Shown here: one piece after another, positions 29,102 to 41,629 of the stretch
Layout of the letters: every line of letters starts with the position of its first letter
Position numbering within the stretch: position 1 is the stretch's first letter
From: Algoriphagus marincola HL-49
Lineage (GTDB): Bacteria > Bacteroidota > Bacteroidia > Cytophagales > Cyclobacteriaceae
DNA length: 64,000 nt
Direction: 5' to 3'
NCBI GenBank assembly: GCA_001314815.1
Contig: LJXT01000003.1
Span: forward strand, 1-64,000
Made by a program: the position numbers and the translations under genes
The notes under the pieces: generated by a model
The model's input: the letters and a program-made list of their open reading frames with translations, nothing else
The model's database searches: none
What the model was told of the DNA's origin: nothing

Positions 29102-31105
29102 ATGTCAAAAAAAGCAGCCATCCGATCTACACTACCAGGTAGAATCAAGGTAATTCTGCAGAATTTCTGGGGTATGTCTTTGATATTCATATTCTTGATG
29201 ATAATGCTGAGAGCCTTAGAGCTTTACCTAGTGTTTTCAAATCATGTGCTTCCTTTCGCGGTCGGAGATATTCTGAAAGACATTTTTATTCAAGATTTGA
29301 CCTGGTTGGCTTATTTATTAGGACTTTTATTTACCTGCTATCTGGTAGTGGTTTTGATTTCTAGCCCACTTGCCAAATGGCTGCTCCTTTTATTTCTGAC
29401 CATTTTGGTACTTGTACAGGCTGCATTGGTTTTTTATTTTTTCAAAACGCTTCTCCCTTTAGGGAAAGATTTATTCGCCTACAGTACCGAGGACTTACTC
29501 TTGACTGTTCAAGCCTCGGGGCAACTTAACGTCTTCAGTGTGTCCATACTTTTATTCTCCTTTGTGCTGGTTGGATTCATGATGCATCTGGGTACTAGAT
29601 TTTTCCGATTTCCACTCAAAGCCATGTTATTTCTCACGGGCTTATTTATTTTATCAGTAGTTACAGTGATTCTTTTGCCTGATTTGGTTGATAATTCAGC
29701 TACAGAAGTGGAAACTAATGTCACCCGCAACAAGTCTAGGTACCTGACAGAAGAGAGCTTTGACTATCTCATGTATGGCGGTGAATATTATTTTGATTTT
29801 TATCTCCGCTCAGGAACTGAGGATCTTATCGTCGAAAAGGAGTTTGTAGATGACACCTACCCTTTTGCACATAAAGCCGACTATCCGGATGTGCTGAGTC
29901 CTTTCTTCGACTCCTTGGAGCAGGCGCCAAATTTGGTATTTATTTTTCTGGAAAGCTTTGGTAAAGCCTATTCAGGAAAAGATGCCTATTTGGGAAGTTT
30001 CACCCCATTTCTTGACAGCTTGGAACAACACAGCTTGGTATGGATGCATGCCTTGTCCTCTACTGGTCGAACATTCGGCTTACAACCGGGAGTCTTTGGG
30101 GGGCTTCCTTTTGGAGAGAAAGGTTTCTTGGAATTATATCAGGAGTTTCCCTATCATGAAACGCTCCTTAGCATCTTAAGGAAAAACGGCTACGAAACAC
30201 GCTATTTTATTGGCGCGGATAAAAAATTTGATCATGTAGGAAGCTTTATTGAATATCAACAGCCTGTTCAATTTGTTGATGAAAGATTATTTGATCCTAA
30301 ATATTCCAAGTCTCCTTCCACCGGTAATTTTTCATGGGGTTATGCGGATAAGGAGTTGTTTAAAAATGGACTGGAAAAACTTCCCAGAAGCTTTGAATCT
30401 CCTCAAATTCTGGTCTTTCAGACTCAAACTTCGCATGATCCATATTTGGTACCAGAGCGGGAAAAGTATATCCAGAAATTCGAAAATCATCTCAGCAACT
30501 ATTTAAATCTGAACGAAGGTCAAAAATCAGATTATAGAAGCTACCGAGATATCTATATGACCGTATTGTATGCAGACGATGCGCTACGTGTGTTTTTTGA
30601 GGATTATCAAAAGCGGCCTGAGTTTCAAAACAGCATTTTCATCATTACGGGAGACCACCGATTGCCTGAAGTACCGATGTCGTCCAGGATAGACAGATTT
30701 CATGTGCCTTTGATAATTTATTCTCCACTCATAAAAAGACCCGAATATTTTGAGGGAATAAGTAGTCACTATGAAATTACCCCATCGATTCTTTCATTTT
30801 TAGAAGCACAGATAGATATCCAACTTCCAGAAGTGGTCACCTGGCAGGGTCAGGTATTGGACACAGCTCAGACATTCCAGTCTAGAATAGCCATGCCACT
30901 GATGAGAAATAAAAATCAGTTGATCGATTACATACATGGGGACATTTTCCTTTCAGATGGACAAATATTTCAGATTTCTCGAGGCTTGAACATTGACCCA
31001 ATCACGAGCCCCAATGATCTAAATCGGATGATTGGTGAATTTGAGGAATTTAAAAATAAGAACAGCTACATGGTTCAAACGAGGAGGCTTCTTCCCCCTC
31101 AATAA
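29102..31105 (+). CDS. LTA synthase family protein (alkaline phosphatase superfamily sulfatase domain)
   Basis: Five TM helices, then periplasmic domain with NLVFIFLESFGKAYSG, SSTGRTFG, IITGDHRLPE motifs. Confidence 0.88.
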   Translation: MSKKAAIRSTLPGRIKVILQNFWGMSLIFIFLMIMLRALELYLVFSNHVLPFAVGDILKDIFIQDLTWLAYLLGLLFTCYLVVVLISSPLAKWLLLLFLTILVLVQAALVFYFFKTLLPLGKDLFAYSTEDLLLTVQASGQLNVFSVSILLFSFVLVGFMMHLGTRFFRFPLKAMLFLTGLFILSVVTVILLPDLVDNSATEVETNVTRNKSRYLTEESFDYLMYGGEYYFDFYLRSGTEDLIVEKEFVDDTYPFAHKADYPDVLSPFFDSLEQAPNLVFIFLESFGKAYSGKDAYLGSFTPFLDSLEQHSLVWMHALSSTGRTFGLQPGVFGGLPFGEKGFLELYQEFPYHETLLSILRKNGYETRYFIGADKKFDHVGSFIEYQQPVQFVDERLFDPKYSKSPSTGNFSWGYADKELFKNGLEKLPRSFESPQILVFQTQTSHDPYLVPEREKYIQKFENHLSNYLNLNEGQKSDYRSYRDIYMTVLYADDALRVFFEDYQKRPEFQNSIFIITGDHRLPEVPMSSRIDRFHVPLIIYSPLIKRPEYFEGISSHYEITPSILSFLEAQIDIQLPEVVTWQGQVLDTAQTFQSRIAMPLMRNKNQLIDYIHGDIFLSDGQIFQISRGLNIDPITSPNDLNRMIGEFEEFKNKNSYMVQTRRLLPPQ

Positions 31106-31107
31106 AA

Positions 31108-32298
31108 CTATTTGGACCGATGTGCCTCTGAGAAAATCTGACTGATCAGTGGCTGATAATAGTTCCAAAAAAACCCATGGCGATCGCGATGATTTGCAAC
31201 ACTATAAAATCCCCTCCAAAGGGTGGGTAGTCCCGCAAATTTGGCTGATCCAAGGTTGAGCTTCGCATCTGCAAAATCCCCTGCAATATAATAAGAACGC
31301 CCCTTTCCATTAGGTCGAAAGACTACTGCTGGAAAGAACCTAGGCAGCCCCATAGCACGGAGCCTTTCCAAACCTTCATTGGTGGGCTCGATATCGTAAT
31401 AAGATATCACCTGAAACTCCCGCTGCACTAAAACCACATCAAACCAGTCTGGATAAGGCACAATCTCAGGTAATCGGAAGTTTGCTTTATTCCTACCGGG
31501 AGTCCGGATAAATGGGATGGTGTTTTGGTAATCTTTTTGGTCTTCAAAAATTTCAATCTCTCCGCTTTCTTTTACAAAAACCAAACCTGGGCCTTGGTGT
31601 GGCCATGATTGATCATGTTGATTCAGATAGTTAGAAATGAGCCAATCTGGAAGACCTTTATTTATTGCTGTATCTAGCTCATCAAAATATCGAGCAACCC
31701 AACCTGTCCATCGAACACCAATAGTATTTTCCATCTGAGACCGGAGACCTTTCGTGGTGGGTGAGGCCATGGAATTATACTCCAAAACCACCGTTTTTTG
31801 CTTTTCTTGAGTCAATTCTATCAACTTGACCTCCTTACTATTCAATCCACCATAGACCTTCTTACTAGGTTCGTCTGCATCTCCCTCATTTTCAAAATCA
31901 TTTCTGTAAACGCCGTAAGTATCCGCGTAATAAATAATATCACTCGACTCCGCCAACCGATTCAACTCAGAGTCGGAGTAATCCGAGAAGTCCTTGACAT
32001 AGCCATACTTCCCTTCTTCGTCTTCCGAAGGGAAATATCCAAAGTAGTCCCGGTCAAGCTCATAGAATTTACCTGTTTCGGGATTGACAAACTTATCGTA
32101 TTCCATCGCCCAAAAAATCCCCAAATGTTCTCTAAAATCCTTATTTGGGACAGTCTTATCAAGTATCAAAATCGCGGAATTCTTATCGGCCTTCAACCAC
32201 CATATTCCAAAACTAATCCCTGGAAATACAACCAAAAGCACAATAAAGAAAGAAAGCCGCCTGAAATAGAGTTTGAGTTCTTCCTTCATAGATATCAC
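31108..32298 (-). CDS. Membrane-anchored periplasmic protein of unknown function, last gene of putative EPS operon
   Basis: Single N-terminal TM helix then about 360-aa soluble domain; immediately follows YaiO gene with no gap. Confidence 0.6.
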   Translation of the reverse strand: MISMKEELKLYFRRLSFFIVLLVVFPGISFGIWWLKADKNSAILILDKTVPNKDFREHLGIFWAMEYDKFVNPETGKFYELDRDYFGYFPSEDEEGKYGYVKDFSDYSDSELNRLAESSDIIYYADTYGVYRNDFENEGDADEPSKKVYGGLNSKEVKLIELTQEKQKTVVLEYNSMASPTTKGLRSQMENTIGVRWTGWVARYFDELDTAINKGLPDWLISNYLNQHDQSWPHQGPGLVFVKESGEIEIFEDQKDYQNTIPFIRTPGRNKANFRLPEIVPYPDWFDVVLVQREFQVISYYDIEPTNEGLERLRAMGLPRFFPAVVFRPNGKGRSYYIAGDFADAKLNLGSAKFAGLPTLWRGFYSVANHRDRHGFFWNYYQPLISQIFSEAHRSK

Positions 32299-33528
32299 TT
32301 AAAACCGGTATTCACTACCAAAAGAAAGGTTTAAATTATTTCGGAACCGATCTGCTGATAACTCATCACGGCTATACCCTGTAAACCCAAATATCATAAA
32401 CCTTGGAGAAATGAGTTGTTGGTAGCCAAGCCGAATTCGGTAGGAATTAAGCAGTTGGGATTGATCCCTATTTTCTTCATCAGGAGAAACACCCGAACTG
32501 AGTTGAACACTAAAAAAGTCCTCAGCAGTCTTGAAGTAATACCTAGCCTGAAAATTACCGGAAGTACTCACACCGTTATTATTACCGCTAGGAATGACAT
32601 TTGCCCTAAAATTCAACCACCAATTACCTACATACTTCCCAAGGGAAGCGGTAGCAATATGGGTTACTTCAGTAAATCCGAGGTAACGATACCCCCCTTC
32701 CACTTCCCAAGCTTTTGGAAGATTGAAAAATACTGAGGCTCCTAATCTTAATTTTGGAAAAAATCCAGCTCCTGAGCCACCAATGTTTAGGTATGCGTAG
32801 GAGTTTTCACCAAGTGAGGGATACGCATCCAGCTCATATTGGGTACCAAATCCATCAAATCGATGGCTTTGCGTGACTCGGGCAATCAAAGAACCCGTTA
32901 ACTTGGTCTGTGCCCGGCCATAGACCGACCAAGTATGCCATGGGCTGATATCTCCAAAAAAAGTATCGTAGTCATAGGTGGCTCCTATTGCCGAGTTTCT
33001 TCTCAAACGTTGGAGATTTTGCAAATAGCCTAGAATACCTTCTTGTTTGAACCCAGAGTCAAACAAAGCCTGGGCAATATCATAGGCTTCATTGTATTCT
33101 TCCTCATAATATAAAAGCCTTGATTTTCGGTAGGCGACAGCATCTGGCAAAGGATCACCAAGATTGCTCTCTGCCCTTTTCAAAATCTCACCAGCTTTTT
33201 GATAATCTCCAGCCCAGCTAAGATTATCCAGATAGGCCGAATACCCATCAGCATATTTCGGAGAAGCGGCGATTGCTCGCTCAAGGAAAATACTTGCAGA
33301 ATCATTTTTTCCTTCCCAGGCATAACTCCTACCCACCAAAATCAGAATATCCGCGTAGGTGGGAGAAATCTCCAGTGCCCGGAAGGCAATTTTTCTACCC
33401 TCTTGATATTTTCCATCAAAAATTAATTCGCGGGCATCCAGGAGGAGTTGATCAGGGTTCTGACTTTGCTGTGCCACAAGCCATTGAGTCGCTAAGAAGA
33501 AAGACAGAAAAAGAGCAGCTTTTCTCAT
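32299..33528 (-). CDS. YaiO family outer membrane beta-barrel protein with N-terminal TPRs
   Basis: Signal peptide, TPR repeats (ADILILVGRSYAWEGKNDSASIFLERAI), C-terminal YaiO-type barrel ending FGSEYRF. Confidence 0.88.
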   Translation of the reverse strand: MRKAALFLSFFLATQWLVAQQSQNPDQLLLDARELIFDGKYQEGRKIAFRALEISPTYADILILVGRSYAWEGKNDSASIFLERAIAASPKYADGYSAYLDNLSWAGDYQKAGEILKRAESNLGDPLPDAVAYRKSRLLYYEEEYNEAYDIAQALFDSGFKQEGILGYLQNLQRLRRNSAIGATYDYDTFFGDISPWHTWSVYGRAQTKLTGSLIARVTQSHRFDGFGTQYELDAYPSLGENSYAYLNIGGSGAGFFPKLRLGASVFFNLPKAWEVEGGYRYLGFTEVTHIATASLGKYVGNWWLNFRANVIPSGNNNGVSTSGNFQARYYFKTAEDFFSVQLSSGVSPDEENRDQSQLLNSYRIRLGYQQLISPRFMIFGFTGYSRDELSADRFRNNLNLSFGSEYRF

Positions 33529-34988
33529 GATGTAGTGGATTGGGTGTCAAGGTTCTTACGTTCCTCGGCAGTTTTAAATCCTGCCCGAATCATCTTACCC
33601 CAGCCTCCCCGGCCGGCAATGAAGTCTATATGACCTTTCAATCCCCAAAAGACCACCTTTGGGTGAATAAAAAGTGGCTCAAGTAAAATGGTCCTGATCA
33701 GACTTCTTAGGTCATTTTTATCCTTGTAATTATTGTAAGCAATCTGCTCATAGAGAATGCTAAATGCAGAGACAAGCAGGGAAAGGAAATAGATCATTAA
33801 TATTAAGGAGAAGAAATATACAGCTGAAAAATCACCTATCAACAAGAGGATAAGTGTGTAGATCAAGCCAGATATTTCTAAAATCGGCCCCATTTTTTCG
33901 AAAATAGACCAAAAGGGATAAGACACTAAGCCCAATACCCGAAAACGAGAATTATATCCAACTTTATTATGAAGCTGCAGGGTTTCAATCGTCCCACGCA
34001 TCCACCTATTTCGCTGTCGGCCCAAGACTTCTTCATCCTCAGGTACTTCTGTCCAGCAAAGCGGATCGGGAACAAAAGCCACCCGATAAGGGATATCGCG
34101 CTCTTCTAGGTAGCGTCGCAGACGGACGACTAGCTCCATATCTTCACCGACAGTCTTTGGGAAATACCCTCCCACTGCCATCACAAGGTCTTTTTTGAAA
34201 AAGCCAAAGGCTCCCGAAATCAGCATCAGACCATTGATCCGGGACCAAGCCATCCTACCCATCAAAAAAGCCCTACAGTACTCTACCACTTGAAATTTAC
34301 CGATTCTCGATTTTGGTACCCGATACTTGGTTACAGTTCCATCTTTGACATCACAATTATTGGCGATTCCTATCGCCCCACCGACTGCTACTACCTTCTT
34401 ATTGGTTTCCTCCATAAATGGTCGTACCATCCGGGTAATAGAGTCACTTGCCAAGATGCAATCCACATCAATACAAGCCAGGATTTCCATGGTAGAAATA
34501 TTGATTCCGGCATTTAAAGCATCCGCCTTCCCACCATTCTCCTTATCAATTACCCAAAGCCTTCTAAAGGATTTATTTTCAGAGCGATATATACCTCTTA
34601 CAGGAGCAGTTTCGATCTGTGATTGATAAAAGAAAGAGGTCTTTTTCAATTCAAAAGCCTCAATGAGACGATTGAGTGTTTGATCCTTTGAACCGTCATT
34701 GATAATCACGACTTCAAACTTCCCATAGTGAAGGGCCAATAGGCTTTTAACGTTTTGTACAATATTCGACTCCTCGTTAAAGGCTGGTGCCAAAATTGAA
34801 ACTCCGGGGGCAATTGGGCTCGTGATAATATCCTGATAATCTGCAAATCGATTTTTCCTTCGGAAATCTCGCATTTCCAATGCACTCAGGATCATGATCA
34901 GCAGATAGAGTGTGACCACAGAAAAACTGAGAATCATAAAAATGACCCCAAAAACATCAATTAAAAGGTAGAATAGAAAATTATACAT
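33525..34988 (-). CDS. Family 2 glycosyltransferase, processive polysaccharide synthase type
   Basis: TM helices, VSILAPAFNEESNI, IINDGSKDQT, ACIDVDCILASD, VGEDMELVVRLRRY, GRQRNRWMRG (Q-x-x-RW class). Confidence 0.92.
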   Translation of the reverse strand: MYNFLFYLLIDVFGVIFMILSFSVVTLYLLIMILSALEMRDFRRKNRFADYQDIITSPIAPGVSILAPAFNEESNIVQNVKSLLALHYGKFEVVIINDGSKDQTLNRLIEAFELKKTSFFYQSQIETAPVRGIYRSENKSFRRLWVIDKENGGKADALNAGINISTMEILACIDVDCILASDSITRMVRPFMEETNKKVVAVGGAIGIANNCDVKDGTVTKYRVPKSRIGKFQVVEYCRAFLMGRMAWSRINGLMLISGAFGFFKKDLVMAVGGYFPKTVGEDMELVVRLRRYLEERDIPYRVAFVPDPLCWTEVPEDEEVLGRQRNRWMRGTIETLQLHNKVGYNSRFRVLGLVSYPFWSIFEKMGPILEISGLIYTLILLLIGDFSAVYFFSLILMIYFLSLLVSAFSILYEQIAYNNYKDKNDLRSLIRTILLEPLFIHPKVVFWGLKGHIDFIAGRGGWGKMIRAGFKTAEERKNLDTQSTTS

Positions 34989-36543
34989 TTTGTAATAAGG
35001 GGTCTAGAAGCTGTCCTTTCATTTGAAGATTTTCTGGGCTTGAATGCTCATCAAAGTAGTTTTCAAATGTCGTTTCATTCAATTCCTTCAGGCTCTCTAA
35101 GATCAGAAGTCTTTTTGCCCTATCCGATGTCTCCTCCAACAGCTGAAGTAAAATTTTTTCAGAGGTCTCATCACCCAATTGACCAGCTACCTTGATGGCC
35201 ATTTTCTGGACATCCTCGTCTTCTGAGGTAATATTTGCATTGATAAATTCAGCCTCCATGTGTGCACCCAATGTCAAGTAGGTTTGAAGGATTTCTATTT
35301 TTTCGCTGTTTTGAGCGCTAGGAACCAATATTTTGATTTGTTCGATCAAATCAAATCTACCCAAAAAGGCTACAAGCTTGATGGCAAAAATCCGAACACT
35401 TTCATTCGGCGACTGGAAAAGTTCATGAATCATCAGTTTTTTGGTAGGGTGTACATACTTGATGATTCGCAGGTAATTCATCTGCTGCCAATCCGAAAGC
35501 GGATAGTCTTGATTTTTAAGAAATGATAGGTCTGCTTCTTGTGATAAGTTGAGAAGTGTGGCTCCTGCACTACTGCGAACATGAAAGTTTTTTGAATTGG
35601 TGTGCTTTTTTACCTCCGGCAAAAGCTCTGAGAGATCCATTTCATTCACCTGTACTAGCCCTGTGGTGACATAGGACCATTTTTTACTCATCAGATTTTT
35701 CTCTGTGATTTTAATTAGATCCAGTTTTTTGTAGAGTTCTTTCAATTTACCCTTGAACTCCCCTTTCATTTTTTTATTGAGCCCAATGATTCGTTCGATC
35801 AAAACCTCCTTGAATAAAGGCTTTGGAAAGAGCTGCGCCGGAAAAACCTCCCTTAATTCTTCCGGTTTCATTTCTTTTAATTCATCCAGACTTTGTGTGA
35901 AAAGTATGGTGGTCAAAGGATCAATAATATCCTTGTCATAGGCTTTTCGAAGTTCCTCCCGTTGATTTCTACGGGCTTTGAAAATGACCAAAGCCAAAAT
36001 AAGTCCCAAAGCTAAAATCAAAAATAAGGATAGAATCACGAGAATCCAGATCAACTTCCAATCAAATACCAACCAAGTAGATAGTGTATCATAAGGCTCA
36101 TAAATACTTTTGACTGCCGCCAGAATAAGAGATTCGTTGGTTTGCTCCTGCAAACTTGCCGGTAAAAAATCCCCCGTTGCGTAAAGTGTATTCAGGTAGG
36201 AAATGACCCCCTCATAGTTTGTAGGCTCTCCGTACAATAAAAAAATGGAATTAGCTTGTGGAAATATGCTTTGAAGGGAATCATACTTAGACCAGTCGTC
36301 ATAGGTTTTTGTAAGAAAACCTCCATTAACAGCTTGCAGATTTAAATCCGAACTATTAATCCACTCTTGACTAAGGATACTATCCGGTAAAAAAAACTGA
36401 AATTCAAGCGAATTGACTTCTCTTTGCTTACTCAAATCAACCAATAAATCCTCTTTACCTTTAAAAAGAGTATCCAAGGATTGAGCAGAAGCCATCTGAA
36501 AGAATAAGATCAGAGCAAGTAGTGCTGGTATTTTTTTAAGCAT
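34981..36543 (-). CDS. HEAT-repeat protein with signal peptide and central TM helix
   Basis: Signal peptide, about 150-aa extracytoplasmic part, TM LIWILVILSLFLILALGLILALVIF, then HEAT-like repeats (VQKMAIKVAGQLGDETSEKILLQLLEE). Confidence 0.75.
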   Translation of the reverse strand: MLKKIPALLALILFFQMASAQSLDTLFKGKEDLLVDLSKQREVNSLEFQFFLPDSILSQEWINSSDLNLQAVNGGFLTKTYDDWSKYDSLQSIFPQANSIFLLYGEPTNYEGVISYLNTLYATGDFLPASLQEQTNESLILAAVKSIYEPYDTLSTWLVFDWKLIWILVILSLFLILALGLILALVIFKARRNQREELRKAYDKDIIDPLTTILFTQSLDELKEMKPEELREVFPAQLFPKPLFKEVLIERIIGLNKKMKGEFKGKLKELYKKLDLIKITEKNLMSKKWSYVTTGLVQVNEMDLSELLPEVKKHTNSKNFHVRSSAGATLLNLSQEADLSFLKNQDYPLSDWQQMNYLRIIKYVHPTKKLMIHELFQSPNESVRIFAIKLVAFLGRFDLIEQIKILVPSAQNSEKIEILQTYLTLGAHMEAEFINANITSEDEDVQKMAIKVAGQLGDETSEKILLQLLEETSDRAKRLLILESLKELNETTFENYFDEHSSPENLQMKGQLLDPLLQNV

Positions 36544-36544
36544 G

Positions 36545-36916
36545 CTAATTTAGTACGCGCTTGACACGAAGAGCTAATTCGTTGGGATTGAATGGCTTAG
36601 GAATAAAGTCACTTACCCCAAGATGAAAAGCCTCCAAAACAACTCCCTCCTCTTCTCCTAATGAACTCAAGACGATGATGGGTATATCAGGAAATTCTTT
36701 TTTAGCGTAGTGGATCAGCTCTATCCCGCTTTTGAAAGGCATCATTACATCAGTAATTATCAAATCGGGTATGAATTCCTGAATAGCTTCAACACCTTCA
36801 TTCCCATCTACAACTAACTTAGTAATATACCCTTCCTTTTTGAGTCGGAAATCAACAAGACTACTGATCAATAAATCATCCTCTATAATCAGGATTTTCT
36901 TCATTTTTTGGGTCAT
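36545..36916 (-). CDS. Receiver-only response regulator (CheY-like)
   Basis: ILIIEDDLLIS, LIITDVMMPFKSG phospho-Asp, VLSS, PKPF conserved Lys; no output domain. Confidence 0.92.
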   Translation of the reverse strand: MTQKMKKILIIEDDLLISSLVDFRLKKEGYITKLVVDGNEGVEAIQEFIPDLIITDVMMPFKSGIELIHYAKKEFPDIPIIVLSSLGEEEGVVLEAFHLGVSDFIPKPFNPNELALRVKRVLN

Positions 36917-37232
36917 TTGACCAATAAAGATAATGACTTAATGGAAATACCAATAATTATAACCCTTGCAGATAGATAGGATTTTTTATAACAATCATAA
37001 AAGAACAAAATAGCTACTACAAAAAGCAGTTAATTGCCATTGATCAAAAAAATTGCCTTCAAAAAAAAATCTAGCAGGATTACCTAATTCCTTTTATTAG
37101 CTTACCATTTAAATAAACCATCAATCAAACGGGCATTTTGCGACTAAGAAAAAACTCCGAATAATTAGGACTATTTCTTTGCCAATTCCTAAGAATCCAG
37201 GAAAGGATTTTATCAATCAAATTAACACACAC

Positions 37233-38921
37233 ATGAAAAAACCACTTTGGAAAACCGGCCTCTTGGGTCTGTGCGCATGGGGGCTTTTTGGCAGTGGGAC
37301 TTTGTTCGCACAAAGTGACCCCACCGGTCAGAAACCTATCACCCAAACCTATGCATTCACCAATGCCACAGTCCATGCTTCCCCTGGAAGTGAAGGACAA
37401 AAAGCTACCATCGTTGTCAAAGACGGTGTAATTATAAGTGTAGGATCTGGAGTCACTATTCCTGCAGCTGCAAAAGTAATTGCAGGGGACTCGCTTTATA
37501 TCTATCCGGGATTTATCGATGCTGCTTCTCAAGCTGGCATCACAAAGCCGGAAGATCCGGAAAGGCCAAGCGATTTTGTATCGTCAAATCCACCAGATGA
37601 GATCGCAGGTATCACCCCTTGGAGATCAGCTACGGATCAATTTGACATCAGCTCTTCACAGGTAGATGAACTGAGAAAAGCTGGTTTCACCATGGCACAT
37701 TTACTTCCTGATGGAGGAATGATAGCGGGAAAAAGTACGATCATGGTACTGGGAACCAAAGGCTCAACCAACCTAATCAAAGCAAATACAGCACTTGCGG
37801 CAAGTCTGAATGGATCTAGAGGAATGTATCCGGGGACCACGGTAGGCGTCATGGCTAAGTTTAGAGATGTGTACAAAAACACCAGTCTGACTCAGGACAG
37901 AATGGCAGCATTTGCTTCCAATTCAGGAGTAAGCCGGCCCGAAATCAACCCGACATACTCAGCGATGACTGAAGTTGTCAATGGCCAAATTCCTGTTTTT
38001 TTCGAGGTTGAAAATGACTTGGAAGTACGGAGAGCAATCAGCCTTCAGAAAGAACTGGGTTTTAAATTGGTGGTTTATGGACTTGAGCAATATGACAAAG
38101 TGATTGATTTGCTGAAATCAAGTGGTACGGGCGTCATTCTAAAGCTAGATACCCCTGCGGATAAGGCTATCAAAAATCAAAAAAATGATGTGGATGAAGC
38201 GGTTCAAGCTCAATATGATAGAGTAAAAGAATCCTACGATCGTACCATTGCACAAGCCGGTAAATTAGCAGAAGCGGGTGTACCATTCGCATTTTCTACA
38301 ATCGATGCCAAGCCAAGCGATGCGATGAAGTCTCTTCGTGCAATGATCGAAGCAGGACTTACTGAGTCAGCGGCTATGGCTGCTTTGACTACCAACGCTG
38401 CTAGTATGATTGGAATGAATCGAATCGCTGGAACGGTGGAGCAAGGAAAACTTGCCAATCTGGTAATCACCACCGGTCCAATTTTCAGTGAAGATTCTCA
38501 GATAAAGCATGTGGTCGCAGATGGAAGCATTTTCGATTACGAAATTAAAACCAAGATGAAGAATGGTAACGGGGAAGCAACTGTAGAAGTCGCTGGAACT
38601 TGGGACTACACTTCCGAGACTCCTGCAGGAAGCTCTGGCGGAAAGCTTACTATCGAAAAAGATGGAGATGATTATTCAGGAACCATTACGTATGACGATC
38701 CTTCAGGAAATGGAACGGCTACCTCTCCCATTTCTGATGTAAGTATTTCGGGTTCACAGTTGAGCTTCTCTTTTGAAGTCAGCGCAGGTGGTATGGCAAT
38801 TTCTGTAAGTGTTTCTGGAGAAATTTCTGGAAACTCAATGGACGGATCTATGAACATCGCACAGTTTGGTTCTTTCCCAATCTCTGCAACCCGTAATCCA
38901 AATTTTATTTCAAACAACTAA
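37233..38921 (+). CDS. Secreted amidohydrolase family protein with C-terminal beta-rich extension
   Basis: Signal peptide, amidohydrolase-type composite domain (VVKDGVIISVGSG...GFIDAASQAG; AALTTNAASMIGMNRIAGTVEQGKLANLVI); HxH replaced by ASQ. Confidence 0.82.
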   Translation: MKKPLWKTGLLGLCAWGLFGSGTLFAQSDPTGQKPITQTYAFTNATVHASPGSEGQKATIVVKDGVIISVGSGVTIPAAAKVIAGDSLYIYPGFIDAASQAGITKPEDPERPSDFVSSNPPDEIAGITPWRSATDQFDISSSQVDELRKAGFTMAHLLPDGGMIAGKSTIMVLGTKGSTNLIKANTALAASLNGSRGMYPGTTVGVMAKFRDVYKNTSLTQDRMAAFASNSGVSRPEINPTYSAMTEVVNGQIPVFFEVENDLEVRRAISLQKELGFKLVVYGLEQYDKVIDLLKSSGTGVILKLDTPADKAIKNQKNDVDEAVQAQYDRVKESYDRTIAQAGKLAEAGVPFAFSTIDAKPSDAMKSLRAMIEAGLTESAAMAALTTNAASMIGMNRIAGTVEQGKLANLVITTGPIFSEDSQIKHVVADGSIFDYEIKTKMKNGNGEATVEVAGTWDYTSETPAGSSGGKLTIEKDGDDYSGTITYDDPSGNGTATSPISDVSISGSQLSFSFEVSAGGMAISVSVSGEISGNSMDGSMNIAQFGSFPISATRNPNFISNN

Positions 38922-38925
38922 GGAA

Positions 38926-40308
38926 ATGAAGAAAATCAATATACTACTCGCACTTTGTCTGAGTCTATGCTTGTCATTTTCTTGGGCACAATCTCCCAAA
39001 GGGAGCGTGTTAATTAAAAATGGGACGGTACTAACCGTCACAAATGGTACTTATGAAAATACCGATGTCCTAATTCAGGATGGCGTAATCAAGAAAATCG
39101 GGAAAGATCTAAATGCTCCTTCCGGGGTAACCACAGTAGATGCTACCGGTAAATATGTGATGCCGGGTATTATCGATGCACACTCACACGTGGCATTGGA
39201 TGTAGTCAACGAAGCCACTGCTCCTATTGTAGCTGAGGTCAGAATGAAAGATGTAGTCAATCCATATGAAATCGGAATCTACAGAGCCTTGGCAGGTGGT
39301 GTGACTATTTCACATGCCATGCACGGCTCGGCAAACGTAGTCGGTGGTCAAAATGCCACACTTAAGCACAGATGGGGATCAAGTAATCCTGAAGACATCA
39401 TCATGCAGGATGCACCTCGTACGATCAAGTTTGCTTTGGGAGAAAACCCAACAAGAGTACACGGTAGAGGAAATGGCATCCAACCAAGAAGCCGGATGGG
39501 AGTAGAAGCCATTTTGAGAAATGGTTTCAGCGAAGCACTTCAGTACAAAAAAGCTTGGGAAGATTTCAATAAAGCTAAAAGTCAAAAAGGAAGTAACGCT
39601 GTAGCTCCTGAATACAATGAGCGACTACAGACACTGGTAGACATTTTAGATGGTAAAATCATCATTCACTGTCACTCCTACCGCGCTGACGAAATCTACA
39701 TGCTCATCAATGTGGCAAAAGATTTTGGCATTAAAAAGCTGGTATTCCAACATACCAACGAAGGGTTCAAGGTTGCTCCCGAGATTGCTGAGTATACCAT
39801 GGGTGCTTCGGTATTTGCTGATTGGTGGGCTTACAAATTTGAGGTTTACTACTCCACGGCTTTCAACGCAGCCATTTTGCAAAAAAACGGGGCGCTCACC
39901 TCTATCAATTCTGACTCCGCTGAATTGATCCGTCATTTGTACCACGAAGCTGCTAAAACTCAGCGATATGGCAATCTCACTGATGATGAGGCATTGGCTA
40001 TGATTACTATCAACCCTGCCCGTCAGTTGGGTATTGGTGATAAGGTAGGTTCACTCGAAGAAGGAAAGCACGGAGACGTGGCGATTTTCGAAGGCCATCC
40101 ACTTTCTTCCTATGCGATTCCTCAAATGACCTTTGTGGATGGAGTCAAGTACTTTGATATCAAGGAGGACCAAGATGATCAGCGTCAGCAGGTAAGTCCT
40201 ACAGAGACCGTAGAGCCTATTTTACTCACTGAGCACAACCATCGTTGTATGCAGGACACTGAGCACCTTTTTGAGACTGCCAGTGCCTTATTCCAAATGA
40301 ATCAATAA
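38926..40308 (+). CDS. Secreted metal-dependent amidohydrolase (imidazolonepropionase-like)
   Basis: GIIDAHSHVAL metal motif, IIHCHSYRADE, FQHTNEGF, SDSAELIRHL, MITINPARQLGIGDKVGSLEEGKHGDVAIF. Confidence 0.92.
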   Translation: MKKINILLALCLSLCLSFSWAQSPKGSVLIKNGTVLTVTNGTYENTDVLIQDGVIKKIGKDLNAPSGVTTVDATGKYVMPGIIDAHSHVALDVVNEATAPIVAEVRMKDVVNPYEIGIYRALAGGVTISHAMHGSANVVGGQNATLKHRWGSSNPEDIIMQDAPRTIKFALGENPTRVHGRGNGIQPRSRMGVEAILRNGFSEALQYKKAWEDFNKAKSQKGSNAVAPEYNERLQTLVDILDGKIIIHCHSYRADEIYMLINVAKDFGIKKLVFQHTNEGFKVAPEIAEYTMGASVFADWWAYKFEVYYSTAFNAAILQKNGALTSINSDSAELIRHLYHEAAKTQRYGNLTDDEALAMITINPARQLGIGDKVGSLEEGKHGDVAIFEGHPLSSYAIPQMTFVDGVKYFDIKEDQDDQRQQVSPTETVEPILLTEHNHRCMQDTEHLFETASALFQMNQ

Positions 40309-40327
40309 TCCCCTCAACATCGAAGAC

Positions 40328-41629
40328 ATGAAAAGAATAAATAAAACCTTTCTGACCTTCCTGATTGCCCTACTGCCAATGATGGCCATGGCGCAAATTG
40401 ACGGGGAATTTATTAAACCCCGATCAGGAAAATTCCTATTGCAGAATGCAACCGTTCACACCATCACCAAAGGTGTGCTCTCTGGTGCTTCTGTTTTGAT
40501 AGAAAATGGAAAAATAGTACAAGTTGGCTCCAATGTTTCAGCGGATGGAGCTGAAGTAATTGACTGTAGTGGAATGGTGATCTACCCAGGCATGATCGAT
40601 AGTGGTACGACACTGGGTCTAGCTGAGGTAAGTTCAGTAGCTGAAACAGTTGATTATCAAGAGATCGGAAATGTAACGCCGAATATGCAAGCACTTACAG
40701 CTGTCAATCCAAATTCAGAGGCCATCCCGGTTACACGAGTTTCTGGAGTTACTACTGTAATTGCAAAGCCTAGTGGTGGACTATTCCCCGGAACAGCTGC
40801 GCTTATCAATTTGGTAGGTTATACTCCTGATCAAATGTATGCTGGTTTTAAGGCGGTAGCTATGAACTTCCCTAGCTCAGCGAGAAGAGGGCGATATGAC
40901 CGAAGATCAGATGCAGACATCAAGAAGGATAGTGAGAAAGCTCTGAAAGATGCCAACGAGCTGATGGAAAAAGCCAAGCAGTATCATGACCTGAGCAGCA
41001 ATGGTGCAGAACTTGAGTACTACCCAGAAATCGAGCAATTGGCAAAGGTCATTTCTAAAGAGCTTCCGCTAATGATCGAAGTGAATGCTGCTACAGATAT
41101 TCAAAACGCCATCAAGTGGGTCAAAGACATGGATATCCGTGTAATTTTCTCAGGTGTGAAAGAAGGCTGGAGAGTTGCTGATGAAATTGCTGAAGCAGGT
41201 ATCCCTGTTATTACTGGTCCAGTTCAAGATCTTCCTTCTCGTCAATCTGACCGATATGATGCAGCTTATACCAATGCTGGCAAACTTGCCAAAGCTGGAG
41301 TAAAAGTAGCGCTAAGAACCAATGAAACAGAGAATGTCAGAAATCTTCCTTTCCACGCTGCATTTGCAGCCGCCTATGGCATGGGGAAAGAGGAGGCATG
41401 GAAAGCCGTAACCATCAATCCAGCTGAGATTTTTGGTTTGGGCGATCAGTTAGGATCTATTGAAGCAGGAAAAGTTGCCAACCTCATCGTGGCCACTGAA
41501 GATCCATTCGAAACACGATCTCAAATCATGCATGTTTTCATCAATGGATATCGCATTCCTCTAAGCAATAGACATATCAGATTATACCAAGAGTTTTTGG
41601 AGCGCTCTCCTGATTTGAACGCGAATTAA
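40328..41629 (+). CDS. Secreted amidohydrolase family protein lacking the N-terminal HxH motif
   Basis: Signal peptide, VIYPGMIDSGTTLGL in place of GxIDxHxH, C-terminal AVTINPAEIFGLGDQLGSIEAGKVANLIVA. Confidence 0.85.
   Translation: MKRINKTFLTFLIALLPMMAMAQIDGEFIKPRSGKFLLQNATVHTITKGVLSGASVLIENGKIVQVGSNVSADGAEVIDCSGMVIYPGMIDSGTTLGLAEVSSVAETVDYQEIGNVTPNMQALTAVNPNSEAIPVTRVSGVTTVIAKPSGGLFPGTAALINLVGYTPDQMYAGFKAVAMNFPSSARRGRYDRRSDADIKKDSEKALKDANELMEKAKQYHDLSSNGAELEYYPEIEQLAKVISKELPLMIEVNAATDIQNAIKWVKDMDIRVIFSGVKEGWRVADEIAEAGIPVITGPVQDLPSRQSDRYDAAYTNAGKLAKAGVKVALRTNETENVRNLPFHAAFAAAYGMGKEEAWKAVTINPAEIFGLGDQLGSIEAGKVANLIVATEDPFETRSQIMHVFINGYRIPLSNRHIRLYQEFLERSPDLNAN

Follow-up and report, generated by a model that had tools for sequence, protein, structure and literature searches.

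What do six closely packed genes of Algoriphagus marincola HL-49 build together, and how could their product be controlled in a bacterium in which no cyclic di-GMP (c-di-GMP) signalling domain is detectable? The genes lie in the first 64,000 nucleotides of contig LJXT01000003.1 (assembly GCA_001314815.1), the stretch of DNA that we analysed and call the window, within a genome of 3.8 Mb that is 93.8% complete. An original prediction, made from the sequence alone, described five of them as an operon for glycan export. We found the unit to be larger, as synteny and natural fusions make a convergent LtaS-like gene its conserved sixth member, and we consider it probable that the products of this unit form an envelope-spanning, synthase-dependent machine for exopolysaccharide, an unnamed variant with a BcsG-like tailoring enzyme. 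The genes are the following:

36545..36916, minus strand: single-domain response regulator (RR), receiver only (PF00072, E 2.4e-23)
34981..36543, minus strand: HEAT-repeat protein (HEAT_2, E 1.2e-10; hydropathy)
33525..34988, minus strand: GT2 glycosyltransferase/synthase (Glycos_transf_2, E 4e-20; DxD at 174, GED at 281, QxxRW at 325)
32299..33528, minus strand: YaiO-family putative exporter, TPR plus barrel (PF19413, E 1.3e-59; TIGR04390, E 3e-56)
31108..32298, minus strand: orphan protein with a transmembrane anchor and a ThuA/GATase1-like domain (alignment, AlphaFold2 model, Foldseek)
29102..31105, plus strand: LtaS/MdoB-type transferase of the alkaline-phosphatase superfamily, hereafter LTAS-like (PF00884, E 1.2e-27; matches to VP1736 and LtaS)

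The coordinates of the five minus-strand open reading frames and their junctions of +1, −8, −4 and 0 bp were reproduced, and Pfam and NCBIfam upheld the receiver, HEAT, GT2 and YaiO domain calls. Since the nearest relatives of the orphan align from an ATG at 32289, this start is likelier than the GTG at 32298, and the YaiO-orphan junction is thus probably +9 rather than 0. The LTAS-like gene converges on the orphan and ends 2 bp from its stop.

Is this set more than a chance association? Conservation of the neighbourhood had been proposed as a check, and the gene set turned out to be kept far beyond close relatives. The order RR-HEAT-GT2-YaiO-orphan with a converging LTAS-like gene was shared by all of the first 14 neighbourhoods retrieved from the same family and is seen again in Spirosoma and Fibrisoma (L121, L123, L129). 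In Pedobacter and Mucilaginibacter, a YaiO-orphan-LTAS block lies beside an oppositely arranged GT2-HEAT-RR block, and the set is also present in loci from other classes of the phylum. The orphans, of which that of the window is 91% identical to those of Algoriphagus marincola and A. formosus, were collapsed to 22 lineages with less than 50% identity to each other, and their surroundings were searched in six frames. GT2, RR and HEAT were each found near the orphan in 19 of the 22 lineages, YaiO in 17 and the LTAS-like gene in 13. Seventeen lineages have the core five together and 12 have all six; as several contigs are cut short, these counts are minimum values. As order is shuffled and strands are flipped while the set is retained, the link is not just an inherited neighbourhood: the gene set is far from a chance association, and the LTAS-like gene does not stand beside it by accident. 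Among 198 genomes sampled evenly from the class, the GT2 subfamily of the locus was detected in 28, comprising all 13 orphan-bearing genomes and 15 of the 185 without an orphan (Fisher p 5e-13, uncorrected for phylogeny and overstating the significance because the genomes are related). Further genomes contain the RR-HEAT-GT2-YaiO chassis without the orphan, which is why orphan and LTAS-like gene look like add-ons to this core. Apparent losses of YaiO in L065, L069 and L088 and of RR in L107 were discarded as artefacts of open reading frame picking, since tblastn recovered the genes. A contig from a metagenome-assembled genome labelled Sulfuricurvum (L077, JAUYSQ010000016.1) contains a whole Cyclobacteriaceae locus with 98% identity over 16 kb to an Algoriphagus metagenome-assembled genome (L073) and is most likely misbinned.

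Participation of the LTAS-like enzyme had been suggested from its position, and natural fusions now support it much more strongly. Among the relatives we found 11 single-frame fusions of locus components: GT2-LTAS in seven (L111, L124, L142, L144, L145, L159, L160), HEAT-LTAS in one (L050), LTAS-TPR in two (L147, L157) and a GT2-LTAS-TPR triple fusion of 1260 amino acids, followed by YaiO, in one (L164). Four of them were checked with Pfam. In L111 and L164 it confirmed both the GT2 and the sulfatase-fold domain, in L050 the sulfatase-fold domain, and in L147 sulfatase and TPR domains; our own profiles are the only support for HEAT in L050 and for TPR in L164. Through these fusions the synthase is connected to the periplasmic enzyme and to the TPR of the exporter, and a guess from co-occurrence becomes a concrete assembly, with synthase, periplasmic modifier and exporter-type TPR in one natural polypeptide. 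No other result speaks as directly for an action of the LTAS-like enzyme on the GT2 product, next to the exporter.

Which group could such an enzyme transfer? The LTAS-like protein consists of five transmembrane segments and a catalytic domain and matches VP1736 and the structures of LtaS and lipoteichoic acid (LTA) primase. E284, T324, H445, D518 and H519 are invariant in a 19-member alignment, and T324 and the GDH motif align with KT and GDH in LtaS proteins, where these hold the catalytic Thr and metal ligands. The catalytic motifs appear intact, but the FHGNTQTFWNR segment of a Gram-positive LtaS reads IGADKKFDHV here, for which reason donor or acceptor probably differ from those of LtaS. 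In the alkaline-phosphatase superfamily, phosphoglycerol and phosphoethanolamine are the obvious candidate groups for transfer. The resemblance to LtaS and LTA primase, together with the fusion to GT2 in seven relatives (eight with the triple fusion), would also suit a teichoic-acid-like, lipid-anchored polymer. In such a scheme a glycolipid anchor or a lipid-linked glycan would come from GT2, glycerol phosphate would be polymerised on it by the LTAS-like enzyme, and YaiO would move the product at the outer membrane or present it there. We regard this as unlikely in view of the altered segment, the likeness of YaiO to BcsC and PelB described below, and the loci that keep the chassis without an LTAS-like gene, some of them with CotH instead. 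Indeed, a CotH kinase gene lies inside or beside the chassis in five loci without an LTAS-like gene (L047, L048, L053, L122, L149), which suggests that a different phosphate-adding enzyme can take its place; the exclusion of one by the other is suggestive only, because some of the CotH loci are related. DUF4838 proteins adjoin the chassis in other loci, and one chassis has a sub-threshold polysaccharide deacetylase match nearby.

The synthase itself bears the expected QxxRW-type motif (QRNRW at 325) in addition to DVD (174), GED (281) and flanking transmembrane segments, and its key residues are invariant in a 29-member alignment. Its nearest NCBIfam model is PgaC/IcaA (TIGR03937), and assignment as PgaC was rejected as the score of 138 bits falls below the curated cut-off of 422.3. 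Assignment as the cellulose synthase CelA of Bcs systems (TIGR03030) failed likewise, with 33.8 bits against a cut-off of 699 and no PilZ domain in the genome. On these curated scores, the locus cannot be filed as Pga or Bcs.

The exporter candidate clearly belongs to the YaiO family (201.6 bits for PF19413 against a cut-off of 23.9; 190.9 bits for TIGR04390 against 32). Its AlphaFold2 model (predicted local distance difference test score, pLDDT, 89.6) combines an N-terminal TPR-type helical region, for which a TPR_19 match (E 1.7e-6) points to a periplasmic TPR domain, with 14 barrel strands. Best matches of the model in the Protein Data Bank (PDB), as found with Foldseek, were BcsC twice (E 8e-11) and PelB (1e-8), which argues for the proposed role of YaiO as the PgaA or BcsC of a synthase-dependent export machine. 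General porins follow, including OmpG, which is 14-stranded. Some YaiO-like proteins are longer (L156, L162, L166 and L167, 819-1013 amino acids) and carry several extra TPR-type stretches, which brings their size nearer to BcsC or PelB. If YaiO were merely a general porin, the genes could be travelling together with separate surface functions, such as lipopolysaccharide or protein glycosylation or envelope stress, and indeed none of the open-access papers that we found reports a function for E. coli YaiO; the fusions joining four different components and the shuffled but retained gene sets make this decidedly improbable. A system for periplasmic glucan of the kind that E. coli has in Opg/Mdo, with GT2 as OpgH, the LTAS-like protein as OpgB and a product kept in the periplasm, is highly unlikely, as the pairing of a GT2 with an MdoB-type enzyme and a weak match to the OpgB model PRK12363 (19.5 bits against a cut-off of 572, superfamily residues present) are countered by a TPR-barrel exporter in 17 of the 22 lineages and by three fusions (L147, L157, L164) in which exporter-type TPR is joined to the LTAS enzyme.

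The fifth minus-strand gene had no sequence match in Pfam, NCBIfam or a PDB profile search. The orphan is predicted to be periplasmic behind an N-terminal transmembrane anchor and has 39 invariant columns in a 25-member alignment, among them H58, D126, E173, N175, W197, W200, R203 and D341; the same alignment contains no conserved Cys nucleophile. Its AlphaFold2 model (pLDDT 89.1) matches ThuA-like, GATase1-like and GH42 proteins and the fungal deacetylase Agd3, each partially (TM-scores 0.2-0.5), and because the matches are partial we assign no enzyme activity. The model tentatively suggests a carbohydrate-binding or carbohydrate-active periplasmic protein.

How, then, might the synthase be switched? 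The original prediction had seen neither PilZ nor GGDEF at the locus and proposed that RR and the HEAT protein replace control by c-di-GMP. This absence extends to the whole genome: at 93.8% completeness it gave no GGDEF or PilZ match, and control profiles did match. Hence, c-di-GMP control of the locus is unlikely, and RR and HEAT are its likely substitute. The phosphorylation residues E12, D13, D56 and K107 of RR are invariant in a 27-member locus alignment, and large receiver-bearing reading frames of the size of hybrid kinases lie directly beside RR in several relatives. By hydropathy, the HEAT protein has a signal peptide, a periplasmic part of about 145 amino acids, one transmembrane segment (169-187) and cytoplasmic HEAT repeats. 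The membrane-spanning protein originally proposed holds in part, as most relatives keep one N-terminal membrane segment and the HEAT part, but the periplasmic domain is mainly a feature of Cyclobacteriaceae. From adjacency and the membrane anchoring of HEAT, we infer that RR may act through this protein.

Several observations weigh against an export machine of this kind. A QxxRW-like motif alone is no proof of processivity. The HEAT proteins are very divergent (mean column identity 22%), and no RR-HEAT fusion occurs among the fusion reading frames of the relatives. The LTAS-like gene is not nearby in 9 of the 22 orphan lineages, some of them on short contigs, partners are not near the orphan in L055, L141 and L052, and two Zunongwangia loci (L120, L132) have YaiO-orphan-LTAS with neither a GT2 of the locus subfamily nor HEAT nearby; their synthase may lie elsewhere in the genome. 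Finally, synthase-dependent exopolysaccharide systems have three core components and exporter barrels of 16-18 strands (PMC9601211); our locus appears to provide the inner-membrane glycosyltransferase synthase, judged from DxD, GED, QxxRW and the transmembrane segments, and the periplasmic TPR domain, but the YaiO barrel is predicted with 14 strands, and the locus is therefore a variant of these systems at most.

Even so, we favour the synthase-dependent machine and suggest the following course. The inner-membrane GT2 would polymerise a nucleotide sugar and extrude the chain, to which the LTAS-like enzyme would add phospholipid-derived phosphoglycerol or phosphoethanolamine in the periplasm, much as cellulose is modified by BcsG in E. 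coli. Anchored in the membrane, the ThuA/GATase-like orphan might bind or trim the chain, and the TPR domain of YaiO would receive it and pass it through the barrel. The receiver protein would take its phosphate from a histidine kinase whose gene lies elsewhere in the genome (probably next door in some relatives) and would then switch the synthase via the membrane-bound HEAT protein, in place of c-di-GMP. The polymer, its decoration, the direction of transport and the contact between RR, HEAT and GT2 are what we infer from these data. Tentatively, and with somewhat less than even confidence, we go further and propose an unnamed secretion class of Bacteroidota and neighbouring classes, marked by a phospho-receiver/HEAT switch, a 14-strand YaiO barrel, exchangeable tailoring proteins (LtaS-like, CotH, DUF4838, orphan) and an undescribed phospho-decorated polymer. 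No paper naming the locus was found in the open-access literature; an earlier description outside open access is possible. The locus opens a testable way to a polymer secreted by Bacteroidota of water and soil. It also suggests what the YaiO family may do and how bacteria that lack c-di-GMP might control a synthase.

Divergent from the operon, three consecutive genes of the amidohydrolase family follow on the plus strand (37179-41629), and a block of genes for about 433, 460 and 565 amino acids adjoins Cyclobacteriaceae loci in the same divergent orientation.

Which known system does the locus resemble most? LtaS and MdoB (OpgB) share with the LTAS-like protein PF00884, the arrangement of five transmembrane segments plus catalytic domain, and conserved residues at the places of the putative catalytic Thr and metal ligands, but our protein stays far under the OpgB family cut-off, has an altered substrate-pocket segment, and its counterparts in relatives are fused to GT2. 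Of the Pel system, the TPR-barrel exporter PelB is the third-best fold match of YaiO, and nothing else in the locus was recognised as a Pel component. Pga (PgaABCD) is alike in PgaC/IcaA as nearest NCBIfam model of GT2 and in its TPR-plus-barrel exporter, but neither a PgaB-type deacetylase nor PgaD occurs in the window locus. The E. coli cluster yaiS-yaiP-yaiX-yaiO likewise places a GT2 beside a YaiO-family barrel, together with a PIG-L deacetylase and an acyltransferase pseudogene, but contains no RR, HEAT, LTAS or orphan; YaiP is 22% identical to our GT2 (E 9e-9), and for E. coli YaiO neither a TPR match nor any BLAST similarity to the locus YaiO was obtained, so that the Pfam profile alone joins the two. 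The cluster is possibly a decayed relative of such systems. In E. coli K-12 (L136:6070-10617), yaiX is broken by IS2. Closest is the E. coli type II Bcs system (BcsA, BcsC, BcsG), which shares the GT2 synthase, the TPR-barrel exporter and a periplasmic tailoring transferase of the alkaline-phosphatase superfamily; BcsA positions BcsG near the nascent cellulose, and BcsC has TPRs ahead of its pore (PMC11379886). Unlike Bcs, the locus has a GT2 without PilZ, no BcsB or BcsZ was seen, the TPR region is shorter, the barrel is predicted with 14 strands, the sequence matches of the transferase are of the LtaS/MdoB type, and RR and HEAT stand where c-di-GMP control would be. The best fold match of the YaiO model is nevertheless BcsC, and in its way of working the locus would come nearest to this BcsG-containing system.

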